Source: Comamonas sp. BIGb0124
GTDB taxonomy: Bacteria; Pseudomonadota; Gammaproteobacteria; Burkholderiales; Burkholderiaceae_C
Reading direction: 5' to 3'
Length of the DNA stretch: 64,000 nucleotides
Assembly (NCBI RefSeq): GCF_003752175.1
Contig: NZ_RJVF01000015.1
Span: 1 to 64,000, forward strand
A model generated the notes under the pieces. The model saw only the letters and a list, made by a program, of their open reading frames with translations, ran no database searches and was not told the DNA's origin. Made by a program: the position numbers and the translations under genes. How positions within the stretch are numbered: position 1 is the first letter of the stretch; each line of letters opens with the position of its first letter. Below are positions 7,273 through 49,402 of the stretch, one piece after another.

Positions 7273-8952
7273 TCAGCGCTGCTTGTAGACCTCGTGGTAC
7301 CGCGTGGTGACGGCGGGGTGGCCGTGGTAGTCGCGCAGATCGCGCGTCAGCATGACCGTGTCCAGCATCTGCGAGATCGGAAAGATCGCGCCCACCTCGC
7401 GCTCGAACTCGCGCTGGATATCCTGGTACATCGCCTTCTGCCGCACCGGGTCGGCCTGCGTGACCGCCTCCTCGATCCGCGCATTGATTGCGGGACTGAA
7501 GAACGATGTCCGCCAGCCCTGGAAGTTGGTCAGCCGCGCTTCGTCCCGGTTGTCGGGGTTGTAGACCAGGGCCCGCAGGCTGGAATGGGGGTGAGGCTCG
7601 GCGCCGCCGCCGCCCCGGCCGACGATGATGTCGAACTTGCGCTCGCGCATGGCGCCATAGACCTGGTTGCCGGTGCCCGGCAGGATGGCCGCCTGGATGC
7701 CTGCCTGAGCCAGCGTCGCCTGCAGGCTGGTGGCGATGTTGATGAAGGGCGATTCGGCCAGCACGCGGATGGTGGTCTTGAAGCCCTGGGGGTAACCCGC
7801 TTCGGCCAGCAGTTTCCGGGCGGCGTCCACGTCGAGCGCATAACCCGGCTCGGGCAGCGTGGCATCCAGCCCGCGTTGGACCGGTCGCTGATGCAGCACG
7901 CCGTAACCCGGCATGATCGACGCATTGATGCCCTGGTAGTCGATCAGCGAACGCAGCGCCAGCCGCACCCGCGCATCGGCAAACGGCCCCTCGCGTGCAC
8001 TGACCGCCGCGTAGTACATGGTGCCGCGCTGCACGCCTTCGCTCACCAGGTCGCCGGCCCGTTGCAGGGCCTGGATGTCGGGCACGGACATGCCCGTCGC
8101 GATGTCGATATCGCCGCGCTCGATCATCAGGCGCAAGGCCTGCGACTCGGTCATGTGGCGCATCACGACACGGCGCAACCGGGCCGGGCCGCGCCAATAG
8201 CCGTCGTACCGGCTCATGAGCAGCACGTCCTTGGCGCGCCATTCGTCCAGCTTGAATGCCCCCGAGCCCGCCGCGCGGGTGCTCAGCCACGCATGGCCCA
8301 GGTCGCCGTTGCGGTCGTGCGCCATGACCGTCCGGCGGTCCAGCACCACGCTGCTCACGCTGGTGGCCAGCGTGTACAGCACCAGCTTGGGGTCGGTGGC
8401 TTTCGGCAGCCGGATCACCAGCGTGCGATCGTCCGGTGCGGCGATGAGCTGCTCGGCATTGCCGGCGTTGAAGCCATAGCTTTTCCAGGCCGTGGCCAAC
8501 GCCAGATTGAGCTTGAGCACCCGCTGCAGCGACCAGGCCGCATCGTGCGCGGTCAAGGCATATCCCGAATGGAAGGTCACGCCCGAACGGATGTGGAAAG
8601 TCAGTTGGCGGCCGTCCGGAGCGATCTCCCACTGCTCGGCCAGGCCGGGCTTGACGTCGGTCAGGCGCTGCGGGTCGAGCTCGACCAGGTAGTCGTAGAG
8701 GTTGGCCGCGATCTCGACCACGTCGTTGCCGGTGGCAGCGGCCGGGTCGAGCGACAGCAGGTTGTTCATGCTCATGCCGACGATGAGCTGGTCTTGCGGC
8801 GTCTTGGCCAAAGCCCCGGCGGGCAGGGCAAGGGCCAGCGCACACGCGGTGCCCAGGGCCAGCACACCGGCACGCACGCCGGCCGCCAGCACCCGGCCCG
8901 CCTCGGCCGCACGGAACACGGGGGTCATGGCTTTTGTCGGATCTTCTGCCAC
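7273..8952 (-). CDS. ABC transporter substrate-binding protein, family 5 (peptide/nickel type)
   Basis: Periplasmic solute-binding lipoprotein-like or secreted protein of SBP_bac_5 type, 559 residues. I place the start at the GTG at 8952 because AAAGGAG lies five bases ahead; this gives a signal peptide with hydrophobic core GVLALGTACALALALPAGALA. Family motifs include LAEQWEIAPDGRQLTFHIRSGVTFHSG and the later DVDAARKLLAEAGYP. The ligand is not evident from sequence: family members bind peptides, but also opines, sugars and metal chelates. Because the operon starts with an acid-sugar-type enolase-superfamily enzyme, the true substrate may be a sugar acid or conjugated compound rather than a peptide. 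Confidence 0.92.
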   Translation of the reverse strand: MAEDPTKAMTPVFRAAEAGRVLAAGVRAGVLALGTACALALALPAGALAKTPQDQLIVGMSMNNLLSLDPAAATGNDVVEIAANLYDYLVELDPQRLTDVKPGLAEQWEIAPDGRQLTFHIRSGVTFHSGYALTAHDAAWSLQRVLKLNLALATAWKSYGFNAGNAEQLIAAPDDRTLVIRLPKATDPKLVLYTLATSVSSVVLDRRTVMAHDRNGDLGHAWLSTRAAGSGAFKLDEWRAKDVLLMSRYDGYWRGPARLRRVVMRHMTESQALRLMIERGDIDIATGMSVPDIQALQRAGDLVSEGVQRGTMYYAAVSAREGPFADARVRLALRSLIDYQGINASIMPGYGVLHQRPVQRGLDATLPEPGYALDVDAARKLLAEAGYPQGFKTTIRVLAESPFINIATSLQATLAQAGIQAAILPGTGNQVYGAMRERKFDIIVGRGGGGAEPHPHSSLRALVYNPDNRDEARLTNFQGWRTSFFSPAINARIEEAVTQADPVRQKAMYQDIQREFEREVGAIFPISQMLDTVMLTRDLRDYHGHPAVTTRYHEVYKQR

Positions 8953-8994
8953 GTTGTCTCCTTTGTTTTGCATCCCGGGAATCGCCTCGGGTTT

Positions 8995-10152
8995 TCAGTA
9001 CGTCTCGATCGTATGGGCTTCGACGTAATCGAGATCGATGTCCTCGCCCAAACCGGGTTTCTGCGACAGGTGGACATAACCGTCGGCATCCATCGGATCC
9101 CAAAGGCTGTTGAGGTAGGGAGGCACTTCGTCGTAATCCAGGAAGGGGTGCAGCAGGCCGCGTTCGTACCAGCGGCAGTTCTTGATGGCGGCACAGACCG
9201 CCAGGTTGCCCGCGCTGCTGCCGTGCACCTCGCAATCCATGCCGAACGACTCGGCCAGATGGGCGACCTTCAGCGTCGGGCCGATGCCCCCCACGCCCGG
9301 CACGCCGGCACGCAGGATGTCGCAGGCCCCGGCCTTGACCCAGTCGGCGCGCGTCCAGTGCTTGCCCGCGGCCGTTTCGGGGCCCAGGATGGGAATATCG
9401 AGCTGCCCGGCCAGCCAGGCGTACGAAGCGATGCTTTGCTCGCTCATCATTTCCTCGAACCAGGTGAAGTTCAGGCGCTCGAGCGCACGGCCGATCTTCA
9501 AGGCCTCCATCCGGCTGTACCAGTGGTAGCCGTCGATCATCAGCGCGATGTCCGGCCCGACCGCTTCACGCACCGCTTCGCAGGCCTTGATGTCCATTTC
9601 GACGCTGGGCGCAAACGACACCGGCGGCATCCAGGTGTGCAGCTTGATGGCCTTGTAGCCCCGCTGCACCAGCTTGACCGCGAAGGCCGCGTACTCGTCC
9701 GGCGTGGACAGGCCGCCCTTGAGCTCGTCGCCGCACATCGTGCTGCCATAGGCGGGCACCTTGTCGCGATAGCCGCCGATGAGCTTGTAGACCGGCAGCC
9801 CGAGCTTGCGCGCGGCGAGATCCCACAGGGCCTGATCGAATGCGGCCAGGGCGCGCTCGGTCAGTTGTCCGGCGCTGCCACGCTGCCAGTGCTCCAGGTC
9901 GTGCCACAGGCGCTCGCGGTCCATGGGATCCTGACCGATCAGCACCTTGCGTCCGAAGCTGTTGATCACGAAAGGACGAATCACTTCGACCGGCGCCAAC
10001 ACGCGGCCGGCCGTGCCGTCTTCGGCCGTGAGCGTCAGCATCGCCAGCTTGGCCTGTGTGACGGTGTCGCTGGGGTGGGAATGCCCTGCGCTGTCGGATG
10101 TCCGACGGGATGGGAAGGTGAAGACCTGGCCTTTGATGCTTTCGATTTTCAT
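8995..10152 (-). CDS. Enolase-superfamily enzyme (mandelate racemase / acid-sugar dehydratase subgroup)
   Basis: 385-residue TIM-barrel enzyme predicted to abstract a proton alpha to a carboxylate. Three Mg ligands are visible: D207 (LMIDGYHW), E233 or E234 (WFEEMM) and E259 (GPETAAG). The second-strand catalytic motif reads K170-x-H172 (AIKLHTW) instead of the usual K-x-K, and the His-Asp dyad is D278 (CDILRAG) and H310 (CEVHGSSAGNLA). The reaction (dehydration, racemisation or epimerisation of an acid sugar) cannot be fixed from sequence. It is the first gene of the transporter operon, facing the GntR regulator across an operator-rich promoter region. No good ribosome site is visible before the ATG at 10152, so the mRNA may be nearly leaderless or initiate weakly. 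Confidence 0.9.
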   Translation of the reverse strand: MKIESIKGQVFTFPSRRTSDSAGHSHPSDTVTQAKLAMLTLTAEDGTAGRVLAPVEVIRPFVINSFGRKVLIGQDPMDRERLWHDLEHWQRGSAGQLTERALAAFDQALWDLAARKLGLPVYKLIGGYRDKVPAYGSTMCGDELKGGLSTPDEYAAFAVKLVQRGYKAIKLHTWMPPVSFAPSVEMDIKACEAVREAVGPDIALMIDGYHWYSRMEALKIGRALERLNFTWFEEMMSEQSIASYAWLAGQLDIPILGPETAAGKHWTRADWVKAGACDILRAGVPGVGGIGPTLKVAHLAESFGMDCEVHGSSAGNLAVCAAIKNCRWYERGLLHPFLDYDEVPPYLNSLWDPMDADGYVHLSQKPGLGEDIDLDYVEAHTIETY

Positions 10153-43434: not shown

Positions 43435-43461
43435 GCCGCGCCATTGTGGCGCGGCTTTTTT
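43435..43461 (+). terminator. Intrinsic terminator of glyA-nrdR
   Basis: GCCGCGCC / GGCGCGGC eight-base-pair stem (43435-43442 with 43448-43455), five-base loop ATTGT, then six Ts. It overlaps the stop codon of the convergent cfa-like gene by one base. Confidence 0.93.
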
Positions 43462-44567
43462 CATGGCCGCCTCGAAAGGCCGGGTCGCACGAATCGATAG
43501 TGGCAGACCCCCCACTGCTTGCCGCCGGCATAACCGAAGAGTTCGGCGCAAGCCATCCAGAACATGCGCCAGCGCTGGCTCCACAAGGTGGCGACGGACG
43601 GTCCGTAGTGCCGCGCCAGGATGGCCAGCACGGCGTCGCGTTGACGGTCTTGATTGGCCAGCCACTGGTTCGCGGTGCGCGCGTAGTGGGTGCCCTCGAC
43701 CATCCAGCGTGACTCCAGTTTCAGGTCGTCCTGGAACCACAGCAGCGTATCGGCCGCAGGCATGATGCCGCCGGTGAAGAAATGACGGCCCATCCAGTTG
43801 TCGGCACCTTCGGTTTCGAAGGGATACATCAGCGTACGGTGCGCGAAGATGTGGACAAAGAGTTTGCCGCCGGGGCGCAGCCATTGGCCGATGCGTCCCA
43901 TCAGGGCCTGATAGTTGCGCATGTGCTCGAACATTTCCACCGACACGCAGCGGTCGAATGACGCGGCAGGAAGCGTCAGGCCGTTGACGTCGCGTGTCAG
44001 CACGGTGACGTGGCTGTGGCCGCGGGCCCGGCATTGGGCCTCGATGTGCAGGCGCTGGGCCTGCGAGTTCGAAACGGCGGTGATGCGGGCCCGGGGAAAC
44101 TGCTCGGCCATCCACAGGGTGAGCGAACCCCAGCCGCAGCCGAGCTCGAGGATGTCCTGTCCATCGGCCAGTTCGGCCCGCATGCCGTAGAGGGCCAGCA
44201 TGGCCAGTTCGGCCTGCTCGAGGGTTTCGTGGCCGGTGGGGTAATAACAGCCCGAGTACTTCAGGCGCGGCCCCAGGCAGAGACGGAAGAACTCCGGGGG
44301 CAGTTCGTAATGCTGGCGGTTGGCCGCGTCGGTGTGCAGGGCCACCGGACTGTCTCGCAACTGCCGCACCAGGGACTGGTACCGGGCCCCCTGGCCCTCG
44401 GGGCCACAGGCGCCCTCGTCGTCCAGGCGGCGGGCGCACAGTTGCCGGATGCCGTGCCGGATGAGCGCGTCGGGCACCCAGCCCCGCTCGGCCCAGCCCA
44501 GCGGACCCGAGGCCGGCCGGTCGCTGGCGAGTTCATTGCAGTCGGAAATCAGTGGCGTGGAGCTCAT
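43461..44567 (-). CDS. Cyclopropane-fatty-acid synthase-like SAM methyltransferase
   Basis: 368 residues. It lacks the usual N-terminal Cfa domain and corresponds to the catalytic half: QHYELPPEFFRLCLGPRLKYSGCYY, SAM motif ILELGCGWGSLTLWMAEQFP (residues about 139-158), CVSVEMFEHMRNYQ, and HTLMYPF-like RTLMYPFETEGADNWMGRHF. Such paralogues modify acyl chains of phospholipids and cluster with stress sigma factors. It is the last of a three-gene run (DUF2878, DUF1295, this), each overlapping the next by ATGA; the run is led by the 46059-46086 promoter element. Confidence 0.9.
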   Translation of the reverse strand: MSSTPLISDCNELASDRPASGPLGWAERGWVPDALIRHGIRQLCARRLDDEGACGPEGQGARYQSLVRQLRDSPVALHTDAANRQHYELPPEFFRLCLGPRLKYSGCYYPTGHETLEQAELAMLALYGMRAELADGQDILELGCGWGSLTLWMAEQFPRARITAVSNSQAQRLHIEAQCRARGHSHVTVLTRDVNGLTLPAASFDRCVSVEMFEHMRNYQALMGRIGQWLRPGGKLFVHIFAHRTLMYPFETEGADNWMGRHFFTGGIMPAADTLLWFQDDLKLESRWMVEGTHYARTANQWLANQDRQRDAVLAILARHYGPSVATLWSQRWRMFWMACAELFGYAGGKQWGVCHYRFVRPGLSRRP

Positions 44568-45382
44568 GGCGTGGGCGGCGGAGGGGAGGAAGAACGGCGG
44601 CGCACCGGCCACGGGATCAGCATGGGCGTCTCCTGCTGATACCGGCGGTAATCGTCGCCACGGGTGCGCAAGGCTTGCGCTTCGGTGTAGGGGATGCCGC
44701 TGATCCAGCGCAAAAAGACGTACATGACGAGCGGCCCCATGCAGGCCAGCCAGAACCAGGGCGAGCCCCAGGCCAGGGCGACATAGGCAAACCAGTGCAG
44801 CCACTCGAAGAAATAGTTGGGATGGCGCGAGTAGCGCCAGAGCCCCTGCCGGCAGGTCCGTCCCCGATGGGCCGGCACGCTGCGGAATGCGGCGAGCTGG
44901 GCATCCGCCCAGGTTTCACCCGCCACGGCGATCACCCAGATGGCCACGCCCAGCCACAGGACAGGCGTGAACGTCGCCACGGGATTGGCGGCCACCGCGA
45001 CAAACGGCAAGGCAAACATCACCACCAGAAAAGCCTGGGCCAGAAACAGGCCGTAGAGCTTGAGCTGATTGTCTTGCCAGTGCTCACGAAGCGCGCGGTA
45101 ACGCCCGTCCTCGCGGTGCGGATCCTGCCGGAGGCGACGCGCGATGAGCCACGCCAGACGGGCGGCCCAGACGGCGCCGAGCCCACCCAACAGCAGCCGC
45201 GGCGGCGTGCCGCCAGAGCCTGTCACGGCCATCAGAATCGCACCGAGACCGACCCCGGCCGCCCAGACCGCATCGACGATGCCGGTGTTGCGCCACCGGC
45301 GCTGCCAGGCCCAGCCCGCGCTCATCAGCACCACCATGATCAGTCCGAGCACCAGCAGTTGCAGGCCGGGTGTCCAGGTCAT
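44564..45382 (-). CDS. DUF1295 membrane protein (steroid 5-alpha-reductase-like fold)
   Basis: 272 residues with about seven membrane segments (LLVLGLIMVVLMSAGWAW, AFLVVMFALPFVAVAA, VLWLGVAIWVIAVAGE). Family motifs include GIVDAVWAAGVG, RREDGRYRALRE-like DPHREDGRYRALREHW, LWRYSRHPNYFFEWLHWFAY and GIPYTEAQALRTRGDDYRRY. Members are NADPH-type membrane reductases or methyltransferase-like proteins of unproven substrate; they frequently co-occur with cfa paralogues, supporting a role in lipid modification. Overlaps both neighbours by ATGA. Confidence 0.9.
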   Translation of the reverse strand: MTWTPGLQLLVLGLIMVVLMSAGWAWQRRWRNTGIVDAVWAAGVGLGAILMAVTGSGGTPPRLLLGGLGAVWAARLAWLIARRLRQDPHREDGRYRALREHWQDNQLKLYGLFLAQAFLVVMFALPFVAVAANPVATFTPVLWLGVAIWVIAVAGETWADAQLAAFRSVPAHRGRTCRQGLWRYSRHPNYFFEWLHWFAYVALAWGSPWFWLACMGPLVMYVFLRWISGIPYTEAQALRTRGDDYRRYQQETPMLIPWPVRRRSSSPPPPTP

Positions 45383-46020
45383 GACGGATCCCCCGCATCG
45401 ATCCGGCCTTCGGCACCCACGGCCACCGTCTCATGCAAGCCCCGCCGCGCCAGCACGATGAGCACCGCCATGGCGCCTGTCCAGCCCACGGCCAGCCACA
45501 GCAGGCCGTGCCAGGCGGGACTGGCGAAGGCGAGCGCCTGCCAGGTCCGGCCGGCCCCCCAATAGACCAGCGGGCCGGCCACGGTCCCCAGCGCGCAGGC
45601 CAGCCAGGGATGGCGGCGCAGCGAGGCCAGGGAGTGGTTGAGCGTCATGGCATAGGCTGCCCAAAGACCGAGGATCCAGATCGGCGCGCCGCCGGCGGGA
45701 ACGGCCGGCGCGGGCGAGGCGTGGACGGCCCACCCTGTCGCGGCCAGCACGCCGTCGACCACGCAGCCCGCTGCCAGCGCGGCCACGACCAGGATCGCAT
45801 CCGAGCGGACCTGGTCGGAAAGACGGAGCTGCCATGCCACGAACACCAGGGCTGAGATGGGGCCGGGCCAGGCCCAGCCGTGCCCGGCCCCGATCACGGC
45901 AATGAACCACACGGCCTGATAGCCCAGCAGATTGCCCCAGAAATGCAGAACCTCGCGCCGACGCGCCGCGCCGGGCATGGCATGCCGCCGAGGGACGGGC
46001 GTGGCGGGAGACTGGGTCAT
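45379..46020 (-). CDS. DUF2878 membrane protein
   Basis: 213 residues with five or six membrane helices (LGYQAVWFIAVIGAGHGWAW, ISALVFVAWQL, AILVVAALAAGCVVDGVLAA, WILGLWAAYAMTLNHSLASL, AGPLVYWGAGRTWQALAF). The DUF2878 pattern (N-terminal NLLGYQAVWF, central PIWILGLWAAYAMTLNHSL) is clear. Function is unknown, but the family is typically found beside cfa and DUF1295 genes in ECF-controlled clusters. It is first in its operon; the start at 46020 lies about 32 bases after the predicted transcription start of the TGCATCC-N15-CCGTAT element. Confidence 0.88.
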   Translation of the reverse strand: MTQSPATPVPRRHAMPGAARRREVLHFWGNLLGYQAVWFIAVIGAGHGWAWPGPISALVFVAWQLRLSDQVRSDAILVVAALAAGCVVDGVLAATGWAVHASPAPAVPAGGAPIWILGLWAAYAMTLNHSLASLRRHPWLACALGTVAGPLVYWGAGRTWQALAFASPAWHGLLWLAVGWTGAMAVLIVLARRGLHETVAVGAEGRIDAGDPS

Positions 46021-46058: not shown

Positions 46059-46086
46059 ATACGGCCGGCGGTGTCGATTGGATGCA
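46059..46086 (-). promoter_or_regulatory. ECF-type promoter element 1 (TGCATCC-N15-CCGTAT)
   Basis: -35-like TGCATCC on the minus strand at 46086-46080 and -10-like CCGTAT at 46064-46059, upstream of the DUF2878-DUF1295-cfa operon. Identical in both hexamers and spacing to elements 2 and 3. Confidence 0.75.
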
Positions 46087-46106
46087 GGCAGGCCGCGCGC
46101 CTGGTT

Positions 46107-46967
46107 TCATGCCGGACATCGCGCAACCAGCGGTGTGGCGGCGGCGGCCTCGATCGCAGCCGCATCCGGCGGCGGCAGGCGGCTGGATGCAGGAAACTCG
46201 ATGCGCACCGTCGGCGTGTTTCCGGCGGCATCCCGGATGTTGCCGGGGCCTTCGAAACGCAGCAGGCGCCGGTCGGCTTCGCTGTAGGTGAGATCGATGG
46301 ACGGTGCCGCAAAACCGTACCAGGCGTCGAGCCGCAGCCGGATCGACCGTGTGGGTCGGCCGCCCTGCCCCGGCTGGCCGCCTGACGCAACCCGAAAGTC
46401 GTAGAACGCCAGCCGGCTGGGGACCAGGAAAACCAGCGTCGGCGGCACGGGCCCCGCCAGATCGGACCAGTGGCTGCGCACATAGGCATCGAAGCCCGCA
46501 TCGATGATGGCGCCAGGCAGATCCGGCAGCACGGCGCTGCGCACGGCGGCGCCCGCGTTCTCGCGCACATGGACTTGCCGCCGGCCGCCGACGCGGTTCA
46601 CACCCTCCTGATAGCCGTCGCGCTGGTCCACCAGCAGGAAATCGGGTGCGGAACCGCCGACCGGGCCACGGACCCATTTGCGTGCAAAAGCCGGACCGGC
46701 CGGGCAGCGGTACAGCACGATCCGGTACTGCCGACCGTCCCGCTCTTCGACCCAATGCTCTTCCTGGTACAGCAACCGCGTACTGCCGGACGCGTAGGCC
46801 AGACCCCAGAAGTGTTCGGTCACGCCGCCGGCGGCCTGGACCGCATCGAGCGGGCGGCCGTCGTCGACCTGTGCGGCCGCGAGGGTCGACAGGCCGCATA
46901 AAACGGCGGCCACGAGGCGCACCCCGCTGCGCAAAACGATTGCGGGGGCATGTCGGAGCAAGTCCAT
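46107..46967 (-). CDS. Secreted hypothetical protein of the ECF cluster
   Basis: 286 residues from ATG 46967 (GGAGG six bases ahead); an in-frame ATG at 47000 lacks a ribosome site. N-terminal signal peptide (SGVRLVAAVLCGLSTLAAAQ). The mature region reads like a periplasmic beta-rich protein (EEHWVEERDGRQYRIVLYRC, RSIRLRLDAWYGFAAPSIDL, RRLLRFEGPGNIRDAAGNTP). I do not recognise a named domain; the position matches that of small lipid-binding or DUF3833-like exported proteins in related clusters, but no lipobox is present. It is transcribed alone from promoter element 2. Confidence 0.75.
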   Translation of the reverse strand: MDLLRHAPAIVLRSGVRLVAAVLCGLSTLAAAQVDDGRPLDAVQAAGGVTEHFWGLAYASGSTRLLYQEEHWVEERDGRQYRIVLYRCPAGPAFARKWVRGPVGGSAPDFLLVDQRDGYQEGVNRVGGRRQVHVRENAGAAVRSAVLPDLPGAIIDAGFDAYVRSHWSDLAGPVPPTLVFLVPSRLAFYDFRVASGGQPGQGGRPTRSIRLRLDAWYGFAAPSIDLTYSEADRRLLRFEGPGNIRDAAGNTPTVRIEFPASSRLPPPDAAAIEAAAATPLVARCPA

Positions 46968-47069
46968 GTCGACCTCCAGGGCGATGCACGCATCGGTCAC
47001 GGTTCAAGGCACGGCAGTCACAGCGGGCCCGGGACGGGCGAGCGGCGCCGGCGTGCCGACTGTCCTGCT

Positions 47070-47097
47070 ATACGGTCTTCGTGGCGGTCTGGATGCA
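47070..47097 (-). promoter_or_regulatory. ECF-type promoter element 2 (TGCATCC-N15-CCGTAT)
   Basis: TGCATCC at 47097-47091 and CCGTAT at 47075-47070 on the minus strand, 103 bases before the start of the secreted protein at 46967. Spacer sequence differs from the other two copies while its length (15) is the same. Confidence 0.75.
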
Positions 47098-47165
47098 GTG
47101 CGCGCAAAAAATCGTGAGGTCTGCGCGCGGCGCCGGCCGAGCGGAAACAGGCGATGGACCGATGC

Positions 47166-48056
47166 TCAGGGCGGATCGCCCTGCAGGCGCGGAGGCACGG
47201 GCGCAAGGACAAAACGCGAGAGGTCGTCGAGGACGGGAGCCCGCCAGCGCAGCGGCCGAGCCAGGGCGCCGGCGAGCATCTGATGACCGAGTCCGGGGTA
47301 CTCCACCTGCTCGACCCGTGCCCCTGCACGGCGCAAGGCGTCGGCCAGGGCACGCGTGTTGCGGACCGGATCGACCAGCGTGTCGTCGGTACCGGCCATG
47401 AGCAATGTGGGCGGCGCATCGGCACCGGCATGGACGACCGGCTGGGAGTCCGGCGGTGTATCCGGAAAATGGAAGATCGGCCGGAGCGTGCGCGAAACGA
47501 TGGGCAGGAACTCGTACGGACCCGCCATGCCGATCCAGCCCTTGAGCTGCTGCGGCGAATGGCCGAACCGGGCCAGCCAGCGCGGATCGAGTGCGACCAT
47601 GGCGGCGTTGTACCCTCCGGCGCTGTGCCCCGCCAGAAACACCCGGCCGGCATCGCCGCCGTAGGCACCGATGTGATCCAGCGTCCAGGCCACGGCCTGG
47701 GCCGTGTCGGCCACGAAGTCGGGATACGTCACCTGCGGGTAGAGCCGGTAGTCGATGACGACCGCCAGGATGCCTCGGGAGTTGAGTGCATCGCCGACAA
47801 AACGATAGCTCTCGCGGTCACCGCTGCTCCAGCTGCCGCCATACACAAAGACGACGACCGGCGGACGCTGCACGCCCGGGGGCACATAGATGTCCAGGAC
47901 CTGGCGCGGATCGCTGCCATAGGACAGGCCGGCCAGGACGGTGCTGGCGTCGTCGGGCACCGCACCGTTGAGGATGCGGATCGGTGAACAGGCGGCCAGC
48001 AGGGCCGCAACGCAGGCCATCATCCATCGGATGGCGTGGGGAAGTCCTCGGGTCAT
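47166..48056 (-). CDS. Alpha/beta-hydrolase lipoprotein (esterase/BD-FAE type)
   Basis: 296 residues. Lipoprotein signal MMACVAALLAAC with lipobox LAAC near residue 23. Alpha/beta-hydrolase fold: oxyanion motif VVVFVYGGSW (YGG in place of the usual HGG), nucleophile GHSAGG (elbow in VFLAGHSAGGYNAAMVALDP), acid in AGTDDTLVDPVRNT and histidine in YPGLGHQML. It resembles carboxylesterases and kynurenine-formamidase-like enzymes. Preceded by promoter element 3, it is the first gene downstream of the sigma/anti-sigma pair. Confidence 0.88.
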   Translation of the reverse strand: MTRGLPHAIRWMMACVAALLAACSPIRILNGAVPDDASTVLAGLSYGSDPRQVLDIYVPPGVQRPPVVVFVYGGSWSSGDRESYRFVGDALNSRGILAVVIDYRLYPQVTYPDFVADTAQAVAWTLDHIGAYGGDAGRVFLAGHSAGGYNAAMVALDPRWLARFGHSPQQLKGWIGMAGPYEFLPIVSRTLRPIFHFPDTPPDSQPVVHAGADAPPTLLMAGTDDTLVDPVRNTRALADALRRAGARVEQVEYPGLGHQMLAGALARPLRWRAPVLDDLSRFVLAPVPPRLQGDPP

Positions 48057-48087
48057 GGACAGGTCCTCGAACAGGTGATGTCTCCTG

Positions 48088-48115
48088 ATACGGCCGGCAG
48101 GCCGTTCTGGATGCA
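48088..48115 (-). promoter_or_regulatory. ECF-type promoter element 3 (TGCATCC-N15-CCGTAT)
   Basis: TGCATCC at 48115-48109 and CCGTAT at 48093-48088 on the minus strand; the start codon of the lipoprotein hydrolase follows 32 bases later. It sits between the anti-sigma gene (end 48150) and the hydrolase. Confidence 0.75.
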
Positions 48116-48149: not shown

Positions 48150-48842
48150 TTACAACGCCAGCACGCTGCCGCTGAGGACGACGGGCCCGGTCGGCTGGCC
48201 GGTGGGCGAGCCGCCCGGCGGTTCGAGGCTGACGGCGAGCTGTTGCACCCCGGCCAGTCCGGCTGGCCAGCTCAGCGTGGTGACGCCCTGCATCGCGAGC
48301 AGGCCCAGCGAGCGCGGCGGCTGTCCGGGCGGCAGCGCCCAGAGTTCGAGTGTGCGGCCTGCGGCCACCGTGTTCAGATCCTGCAGGGGGTGGATACGCA
48401 CGGCGCCATCCGGCAGGGTGCGCACAGCGGCCAGTGCCTGGGCCTGCGGGGTCTGCAGCACGGCCAGCCAGCTCGCCCCGGCGACCGGTGTCTCCGGGCC
48501 GGGACGCGGCCTGTCGACCACCACGACCGCCACCAGCGCACAGGCGAGAACACCGCTCGCCAGCCGCCACAGGTTGAGGCCACGCCATCCCCACGGATGT
48601 GCTCTGCCCGGACCGCGGATACGGGCCTGCACGGCCCGCCACACCCTTGCAGGCGGCTGTCGCTCGGGCAGCGCCCACGCCAAGGGGTAGATCTTGTCCT
48701 CCCAGTCGCTGACTTCCTGGCGCAAGGCCGCATGGCTGGCCATCATGGCGACGAAACGCCGGCGTGCGCCGCCGCGCATGCTGCCGCAGACATAGTCGGC
48801 CGCCAGTTGCGGCCACCAGGCTTCACGTTTGCTCCCGCTCAT
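48150..48842 (-). CDS. RskA-type anti-sigma factor
   Basis: 230-residue membrane-spanning regulator. The N-terminal cytoplasmic domain (LAADYVCGSMRGGARRRFVA, LRQEVSDWEDKIYPLAWALP) is the sigma-binding zinc-less anti-sigma helix bundle; PPARVWRAVQARI leads to one membrane helix (LASGVLACALVAVVVV, about 95-110), and the periplasmic RskA domain follows (SWLAVLQTPQAQALAAVRTL, LELWALPPGQPPRSLGLLAM). ATG 48842 overlaps the sigma stop by ATGA. In this family, regulated proteolysis or a redox change of the periplasmic domain releases the sigma factor; which signal applies here is unknown. Confidence 0.93.
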   Translation of the reverse strand: MSGSKREAWWPQLAADYVCGSMRGGARRRFVAMMASHAALRQEVSDWEDKIYPLAWALPERQPPARVWRAVQARIRGPGRAHPWGWRGLNLWRLASGVLACALVAVVVVDRPRPGPETPVAGASWLAVLQTPQAQALAAVRTLPDGAVRIHPLQDLNTVAAGRTLELWALPPGQPPRSLGLLAMQGVTTLSWPAGLAGVQQLAVSLEPPGGSPTGQPTGPVVLSGSVLAL

Positions 48843-49402
48843 GACAGGCACCTCTTGAGACGTTCCATGCCCCGACGAACCCAGCTCTTGACGGTGCCCA
48901 GGGGGAATCCGAGTTGCCGGGCGATATCGCCATGGCTCAGGTCGTCGAAGAACGAGAGGGCGATGGCCATGCGCTGATGGGAATCCAGGCCCGCCATGCA
49001 GGCCGCCAGCCGGCCGCCTTCGTGGCTGGACTGCAGGCGCTCGAAGGGCCCGGGCGCATCGTCGGCCCACGCCTCGACGATCGTGCCGTCGGGGTCGGGG
49101 CGTTCGAGATCGGGGCGGCGCAGCCAGTCGATGCAGCGATTGCGCACGATGCGCGTCATCCAGGTCATGACCTGGCTCTGCTCGGCAGCATAACGGCCGG
49201 CGTTCTGCCAGATGCTGACAAAACAATCCTGCAAGACCTCCTCGGCCCAGTCGCTGCGTCGCAACAGACGGACCGCTTGCGCAAAGAGGTGGGGCGCGCA
49301 CAGCCGGTAGAGCTCGGCGAGCGCAGGCTCATGGCCCCGCGCGCAGTCTCGCATCAAGGCTTCCAGGCGGGCGGGATCGGTCGACAGTCTCGGCATCGGC
49401 AA
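48839..49402 (-). CDS. ECF sigma factor of the SigK/RskA-associated type
   Basis: 187 residues. Region 2: ELYRLCAPHLFAQAVRLLRR, SDWAEEVLQDCFVSIWQNAG, VMTWMTRIVRNRCIDWLRR. Region 4: LDSHQRMAIALSFFDDLSHG, DIARQLGFPLGTVKSWVRRG. Translation is coupled to the RskA-type anti-sigma gene. It heads a minus-strand cluster whose other three transcription units all carry the same TGCATCC-N15-CCGTAT element, so I infer that this sigma factor reads them. No copy of that element is visible before the sigma gene itself, which suggests that it is not strongly autoregulated. Confidence 0.94.
   Translation of the reverse strand: MPMPRLSTDPARLEALMRDCARGHEPALAELYRLCAPHLFAQAVRLLRRSDWAEEVLQDCFVSIWQNAGRYAAEQSQVMTWMTRIVRNRCIDWLRRPDLERPDPDGTIVEAWADDAPGPFERLQSSHEGGRLAACMAGLDSHQRMAIALSFFDDLSHGDIARQLGFPLGTVKSWVRRGMERLKRCLS

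Follow-up and report, generated by a model that had tools for sequence, protein, structure and literature searches.

The gene cluster described here lies in a 64,000-nucleotide stretch of the genome of Comamonas sp. BIGb0124 (contig NZ_RJVF01000015.1, positions 1 to 64,000), referred to throughout as the window. It comprises, in order, an extracytoplasmic function (ECF) sigma factor, an anti-sigma factor with an RskA_C domain, a hydrolase, a secreted protein, a DUF2878 protein, a DUF1295 protein and a CMAS-family methyltransferase, and it contains three identical copies of the element TGCATCC-N15-CCGTAT, termed P1, P2 and P3. These are most likely the conserved promoters of a regulon of lipid and envelope genes under a SigK/RskA-type ECF sigma factor; the promoter class, and the control of such genes by SigK, are already known in kind. 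It is considered highly probable that P1-P3 are -35/-10 promoters read by the SigK/RskA-type sigma factor of the cluster, and that the regulon serves fatty-acid modification. The elements, the conservation of their sequence, spacing and position, the kind of sigma/anti-sigma pair and the gene content were computed directly. From these we infer that the cluster sigma reads P1-P3 and that transcription starts there, while the chemistry, signal and Alcaligenaceae-like source given below are proposed on the same basis.

Candidate Promoter Elements in the Window

An earlier note on this DNA had described three identical minus-strand elements with 15-base spacers of differing sequence, each just upstream of a separate gene unit whose start codon lies 32-103 bases downstream. 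Exact matches were found at all three positions (distances in nucleotides, nt):

48088..48115, minus strand: P1, TGCATCC-N15-CCGTAT, exact match; 35 nt past the rskA stop and 32 nt ahead of the hydrolase ATG
47070..47097, minus strand: P2, TGCATCC-N15-CCGTAT, exact match; 103 nt ahead of ATG 46967 and 70 nt ahead of GTG 47000
46059..46086, minus strand: P3, TGCATCC-N15-CCGTAT, exact match; 39 nt ahead of the DUF2878 ATG

All three are oriented as the genes are, with a spacer of 15 bases each time and spacer letters that differ. The start codons downstream of P1, P2 and P3 are the ATGs at 48056, 46967 and 46020 (32, 103 and 39 bases away), the GTG at 47000 being an alternative start for the secreted-protein gene; P2 itself sits between the hydrolase and secreted-protein genes. 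Domain matches and coordinates place the three units after the ECF sigma/RskA pair on the same strand, as had been proposed.

Across the whole genome (4,958,703 bases, 16 contigs), these three copies in the window are the only exact ones. Under a third-order Markov model of the window, 0.0014 exact copies are expected per window (both strands) and 0.11 per genome. With up to two mismatches, the window holds 7 matches, against a mean of 1.52 and a maximum of 4 in 100 shuffled windows. A near-copy with one mismatch (CCGGAT) lies at window positions 46164-46191, within the terminal (3') part of the secreted-protein gene and about 80 bases upstream of P3.

Looser patterns are less telling. When the -10 is relaxed and one mismatch allowed, the genome yields 61 matches versus 31 for a reversed control pattern, which itself differs in word frequencies; about half of such matches are therefore background. 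Across 40 genomes at up to one mismatch, 124 matches compare with 27 for the reversed pattern (summed by hand), and since 34 of the 40 carry at least one, single matches mean little. The reading of TGCATCCA as an ECF29-type -10 was rejected, as that type pairs GCATCCAA with a -35 GGGAAC (PMC6180224) and no GGGAAC is found by eye ahead of P1-P3.

Conservation in Close Relatives

A sigma scan of genome contigs gave 67 loci, of which the closest 21 (L102-L121 and L126) have sigma factors 69-78% identical to that of the window; 19 of them are titled Achromobacter or Bordetella. Within 300 nt past the rskA stop, the element is found in 15 of these 21 loci at up to one mismatch (8 exact) and in 18 at up to two, with none on the other strand; L118 is counted among the 21 even though its contig ends at rskA. 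In the same region, 500 permuted motifs, which preserve letters but not word usage, gave a mean of 0.002 loci and a maximum of 1.

The lipid-cluster genes are kept in 16 of the 21 loci, and in all 16 a slightly relaxed site (GCATCC-N15..17-CGTA) precedes the hydrolase or a desaturase gene: the hydrolase in 12 loci, the desaturase in 13 and both in 9. Loci without the hydrolase (L104, L111, L119 and L126) have the site at the desaturase gene, and in L105 a further site precedes the secreted-protein gene, homologues of which are present in part of the close loci. The remaining loci vary: L116, L117 and L118 have no lipid genes and no site (the L118 contig stopping at rskA), with L116 retaining a -35-like GGCATCC while the -10 is gone, and in L120 and L121 a fasciclin gene lies downstream of the site instead. 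None of the 21 has a site within 450 bases upstream of the sigma gene. The element thus recurs in orthologous Achromobacter/Bordetella clusters, and the proposal that P1-P3 are ECF-type promoters linked to the adjacent sigma gene holds up in that hexamers, spacing and position are conserved in relatives.

The second site of Achromobacter dolens (L106) stands at the head of a row of fatty-acid desaturase, amine oxidase, DUF1365, CMAS and DUF2878 genes, which continues, by homology, with DUF1295 and a second CMAS. The Achromobacter/Bordetella regulon also holds a desaturase and likely furan-fatty-acid genes (UfaD, UfaO, UfaM) that the window cluster lacks. The simplest reading is that the window cluster has lost the desaturase-ufaD-ufaO-ufaM stretch, which would leave P3 directly before DUF2878. 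Ten of the desaturase-side sites fall inside the desaturase open reading frame (ORF) when the early L106 start is used; the alignments of L104, L119 and L126 begin at residues 38, 33 and 30, which probably puts the actual start past the site. The same over-long ORF start affects the P460 (L158) and DUF3455 (L155) ORFs mentioned below. Three Bordetella genomes (L102, L103 and L105, positions ~8615-9900) carry a second sigma/RskA pair, about 30% identical, directly upstream of the orthologous pair.

Distant Relatives and an Independent Cluster

For a wider view, 121 sigma loci were assembled from 29 loci, 28 new ones (30 given of 61 places listed) and 64 of the 67 scanned loci (L166-L168 gave no sigma match), a set that includes the window's own locus, the second pair of its genome and several duplicates. 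The strict form TGCATCC-N16-CGTA occurs near the sigma gene or after rskA in 35 of the 121, the relaxed form in 51, and the reversed pattern, strict or relaxed, in none. Sites upstream of the sigma gene and in its direction, present in 22 of the 121, suggest sigma autoregulation at those loci. Among 65 different sites, the positions left free by the pattern favour T before GCATCC (53), A or G after it (62), T after CGTA (46) and then A (39); the family consensus is TGCATCCR-N15-CGTAT.

A blind word search of 43 more distant loci recovered GCATC-N17-CGTA in 11, while any word reached at most 6 loci in three single-letter shuffles. Other words ranked above it (up to 17 loci), mainly in element-free metagenome sequences. 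These metagenome loci (L127-L149, L152 and L154) have sigma factors about 45-57% identical to that of the window; spaced words like TTCAT-N14-CGCG, recurring in as many as 17 loci, are perhaps another promoter form or coding sequence. In a sigma tree of 122 rows (110 of them different; one row below 140 amino acids (aa) left out, two PDB sequences added), the sites are clustered, requiring 18 changes versus a shuffled mean near 39, yet they extend across many branches.

When 399 genomes of the order were searched with the element pattern, 236 had a match. One of them, G307, has six sites within 16 kb and was located by the pattern alone; its sigma is 37% identical to that of the window, and it is absent from the 60 genomes that the sigma search matched at 1e-40. 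The six sites precede sigma-rskA, DUF1295-cfa, amine oxidase-DUF1365-cfa (ufaD-ufaO-cfa), a hydrolase, DUF2878 and one gene after a second sigma gene. By its sequence, G307 links this promoter to a largely similar set of genes, independently of the window arrangement. Its cluster (L232, C2:1204500-1224400) contains two sigma genes, one rskA, and genes for GTP cyclohydrolase I and a MerR protein beside the lipid genes. Elsewhere, element-adjacent genes encode a Lipoprotein_15 repeat protein (L165 9430-9834, Pokkaliibacter), cytochrome P460 (L158 11233-11916, Denitromonas) and a DUF3455 protein (L155 11014-11952, Aquabacterium).

Identity of the Sigma and Anti-Sigma Factors

The sigma factor contains regions 2 and 4, and its gene adjoins the anti-sigma gene on its upstream side. 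Two of its cysteines, C135 and C185, align with the SigK cysteines at positions 133 and 183, neither of which is present in RpoE. Each of these columns holds Cys in 48 of 50 relatives carrying the element; among 70 relatives without it, the counts are 68 and 66. Cysteines at the two SigK positions are found in 94% of ECF18 and 56% of ECF19 members (PMC7509140). The anti-sigma factor matches RskA_C at 79.3 bits (cut-off 29.4) and has one strong hydrophobic helix at residues 91-109, likely a membrane helix, while the zinc motif HxxxCxxC is absent from it. By these tests, namely the cysteines, RskA_C, the helix and the missing zinc motif, the pair is of SigK/RskA type and not of RpoE-ChrR type, in agreement with the earlier view that the system is distinct from RpoE-ChrR.

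Gene Content and Proposed Function

The genes of the cluster are as follows:

48839..49402, minus strand: ECF sigma gene, SigK-type, 187 aa; Sigma70_r2 and r4 domains, an ATG a few codons further in being a possible start
48150..48842, minus strand: RskA-type membrane anti-sigma gene, 230 aa; RskA_C 4.2e-22, NCBIfam anti-sigma 101 bits (cut-off 100)
47166..48056, minus strand: alpha/beta hydrolase with lipoprotein-like N-terminus, 296 aa; BD-FAE 3.2e-25, Abhydrolase_3 2.4e-21
46107..46967, minus strand: secreted protein, 286 aa; hydrophobic N-terminus, no Pfam or NCBIfam match at 1e-3
45379..46020, minus strand: DUF2878 membrane protein; PF11086 4.1e-33
44564..45382, minus strand: DUF1295 membrane protein, steroid-dehydrogenase-like; PF06966 6.2e-66
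43461..44567, minus strand: CMAS/Cfa-family methyltransferase; PF02353 3e-34, residues translated from 43461-44564

The flanking ORFs are, we presume from inspection by eye, glyA- and nrdR-like on one side and pilus-type genes on the other. The window cluster contains no amine oxidase, DUF1365 gene or their CMAS (ufaD-ufaO-ufaM), and no desaturase. Elsewhere in the same genome, C2 carries its own amine oxidase/DUF1365/cfa-like set (L170 7109-10813), with no element at up to two mismatches in 19 kb.

In the most likely mechanism, membrane-bound RskA would keep the sigma factor inactive until a signal frees it, whereupon the three units would be transcribed from P1-P3. Their products, an envelope hydrolase, a secreted protein and the DUF2878-DUF1295-CMAS set, would then modify or protect membrane acyl chains. 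Lipid oxidation is a plausible signal by analogy, since a SigK-like pair of Rhodobacter capsulatus is induced by photooxidative stress (PMC7074977) and SigK has redox-sensitive cysteines.

Alternative Explanations

Several observations weigh against the assignment of P1-P3 to the cluster's own SigK/RskA-type sigma. No site is found within 450 nt upstream of the window sigma gene, and 70 of the 121 sigma loci lack a site near sigma or rskA, including groups 45-57% identical to the window sigma; in 6 of 42 more distant loci the element follows rskA at up to one mismatch, a count that rises to 8 when two are allowed. Against the rarity of the element itself, the genome as a whole has 8 matches at up to one mismatch (3 exact, the near-copy in the secreted-protein gene and 4 elsewhere), the reversed control giving 2 at this threshold, so single-mismatch matches in this genome are uninformative. 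The four outside the cluster (L004-L007) were rejected as regulon members, each being overlapped by at least one ORF of at least 100 aa, an overlap that tells little in GC-rich DNA. The sigma also scores below the NCBIfam SigK cut-off (PRK09646, 111.9 bits vs 226); that is a subfamily model, and the miss speaks against a mycobacterial-type SigK proper, not against the wider SigK/RskA group. A second sigma/RskA pair, moreover, exists in the genome at C4:193677-194234, with a sigma 35% identical and an adjoining anti-sigma. Given that a promoter form can be common to related sigmas, P1-P3 could be real ECF promoters read mainly by another ECF sigma such as this one. This is judged unlikely: the second pair (L029, L171) has no element at up to two mismatches in 12 kb, its tree group (L023, L025, L029, L030, L033, L035) has no sites, and the three sites belong to the cluster of the first pair, with which they are conserved.

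The best PDB match of the sigma is Rhodobacter sphaeroides RpoE (2q1z, 2.5e-24) and not Mycobacterium tuberculosis SigK (4nqw, 3.7e-19), a further point against the SigK assignment. It would fit an RpoE-ChrR system of group ECF11 whose promoter has drifted and which responds to singlet oxygen as in R. sphaeroides, where the regulon also has cfa, ufaD/ufaO genes and fasciclin (PMC7380195, PMC6852236, PMC7074977). That is very unlikely in view of the RskA_C domain, the likely membrane helix and the lack of HxxxCxxC in the anti-sigma, and of the two SigK cysteines that RpoE is missing. Less probable again is a transcription-factor binding site in place of a promoter; the element has two blocks at fixed spacing, lacks symmetry, points in a single orientation towards the gene and stands before sigma, fasciclin or lipid genes at many loci of the same sigma group. 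As for chance or a short repeat, one near-copy does lie in a coding region, but the very low number of exact copies expected per window, the differing spacers and the recurrence in other genera oppose it, and conservation in the close loci, the 121 sigma loci and G307 rules it out.

Origin and Other Sites in the Genome

Sigma matches at E <=1e-20 occur in 17 of 40 genomes, the genome under study included. Outside that genome, the best-scoring match in its own family is 48% identical, compared with up to 78% in Alcaligenaceae, and the tree places the window sigma inside an Alcaligenaceae group, beside one Burkholderiaceae metagenome sequence. It is likely, from these relationships, that the cluster was transferred into the Comamonas lineage from an Alcaligenaceae-like source.

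With the -10 relaxed to CGTA (TGCATCC-N16-CGTA), a fourth exact site appears at C1:386547-386573, 160 bases before a Ferritin_2 gene. This may be a regulon member in trans, and in Denitromonas (L158) a site (12738, minus strand) likewise lies just before a Ferritin_2 gene; the reversed control also gives one such match.

Significance

The earlier note had called this a new regulon. No SigK/RskA-driven lipid regulon in proteobacteria was seen in the literature searched, a search with most subscription papers outside its scope, and the member thus appears new. The element, on the other hand, is the general promoter of a group of SigK/RskA-type sigma factors, found also before fasciclin genes. 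More tentatively, and with less than even confidence, SigK-type sigmas could be old and widespread proteobacterial regulators of branched, cyclopropane and furan fatty-acid synthesis, parallel to RpoE-ChrR and responding to oxidative membrane-lipid damage, with the window cluster a reduced form that retains the DUF2878-DUF1295-CMAS branch only. In environmental relatives, the compact regulon, the defined promoters and the partly known lipid chemistry would make the SigK signal and lipid product testable, and the promoter pattern alone can find such regulons by DNA search, as in G307.

Comparison With Known Systems

The promoter of the RpoE-ChrR system is of TGATCC/TAAG type, and the mycobacterial SigK site is CCATCC..CCGAAT. 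Rv0449c of M. tuberculosis is presumably an amine oxidase, in the same row as DUF1365, cfa and DUF1295 genes. The letters of ECF18/19 promoters were not found in the same literature, and the element was compared with the SigK promoter by its position before fasciclin genes, not against the letters of published SigK sites.

In Aeromonas salmonicida, a cfa operon has FAD oxidoreductase, DUF1365, cfa and DUF2878 genes in one row; it is repressed by riboflavin, and the text examined ties no sigma factor to it (PMC10012899). The R. sphaeroides RpoE-ChrR (ECF11) regulon contains cfa together with ufaD, ufaO and ufaM (PMC7380195, PMC6852236, PMC7074977), furan fatty acids being made by the amine oxidase-like UfaD, the DUF1365 protein UfaO and the methylase UfaM (PMC7380195). 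The Achromobacter cluster resembles it in having homologues of the cfa/ufa families. Whereas ChrR is a cytoplasmic zinc anti-sigma (PMC6852236), that of the window is a membrane RskA without the zinc motif. The so-called RpoE-ChrR pair of R. capsulatus resembles SigK-RskA (34% and 25%) more closely than it does the RpoE-ChrR pair of R. sphaeroides (24% and 13%), and the table of the same paper has no R. capsulatus homologue of RSP_1090/1091 (ufaO/ufaD) (PMC7074977).

For SigK itself, redox-sensitive cysteines, RskA proteolysis and both activating and inhibiting roles of RskA have been described, with sigK of M. tuberculosis autoregulated via the Rv0449c promoter and the activating signal reported as unknown (PMC7509140). 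The window pair is like the SigK-RskA regulons (ECF18/ECF19) in its RskA-type membrane anti-sigma and two conserved cysteines. Unlike the SigK-RskA cassettes, its cluster has no fasciclin gene, and three separate promoters stand before the hydrolase, the secreted protein and DUF2878-DUF1295-CMAS. Fasciclin genes with the MPT83-type domain do follow the element in L120, L121 and Sphingomonas L161, and in L123 divergently to sigma; the layout in these four loci is that of the known mpt83-sigK-rskA cassette of Yersinia enterocolitica.

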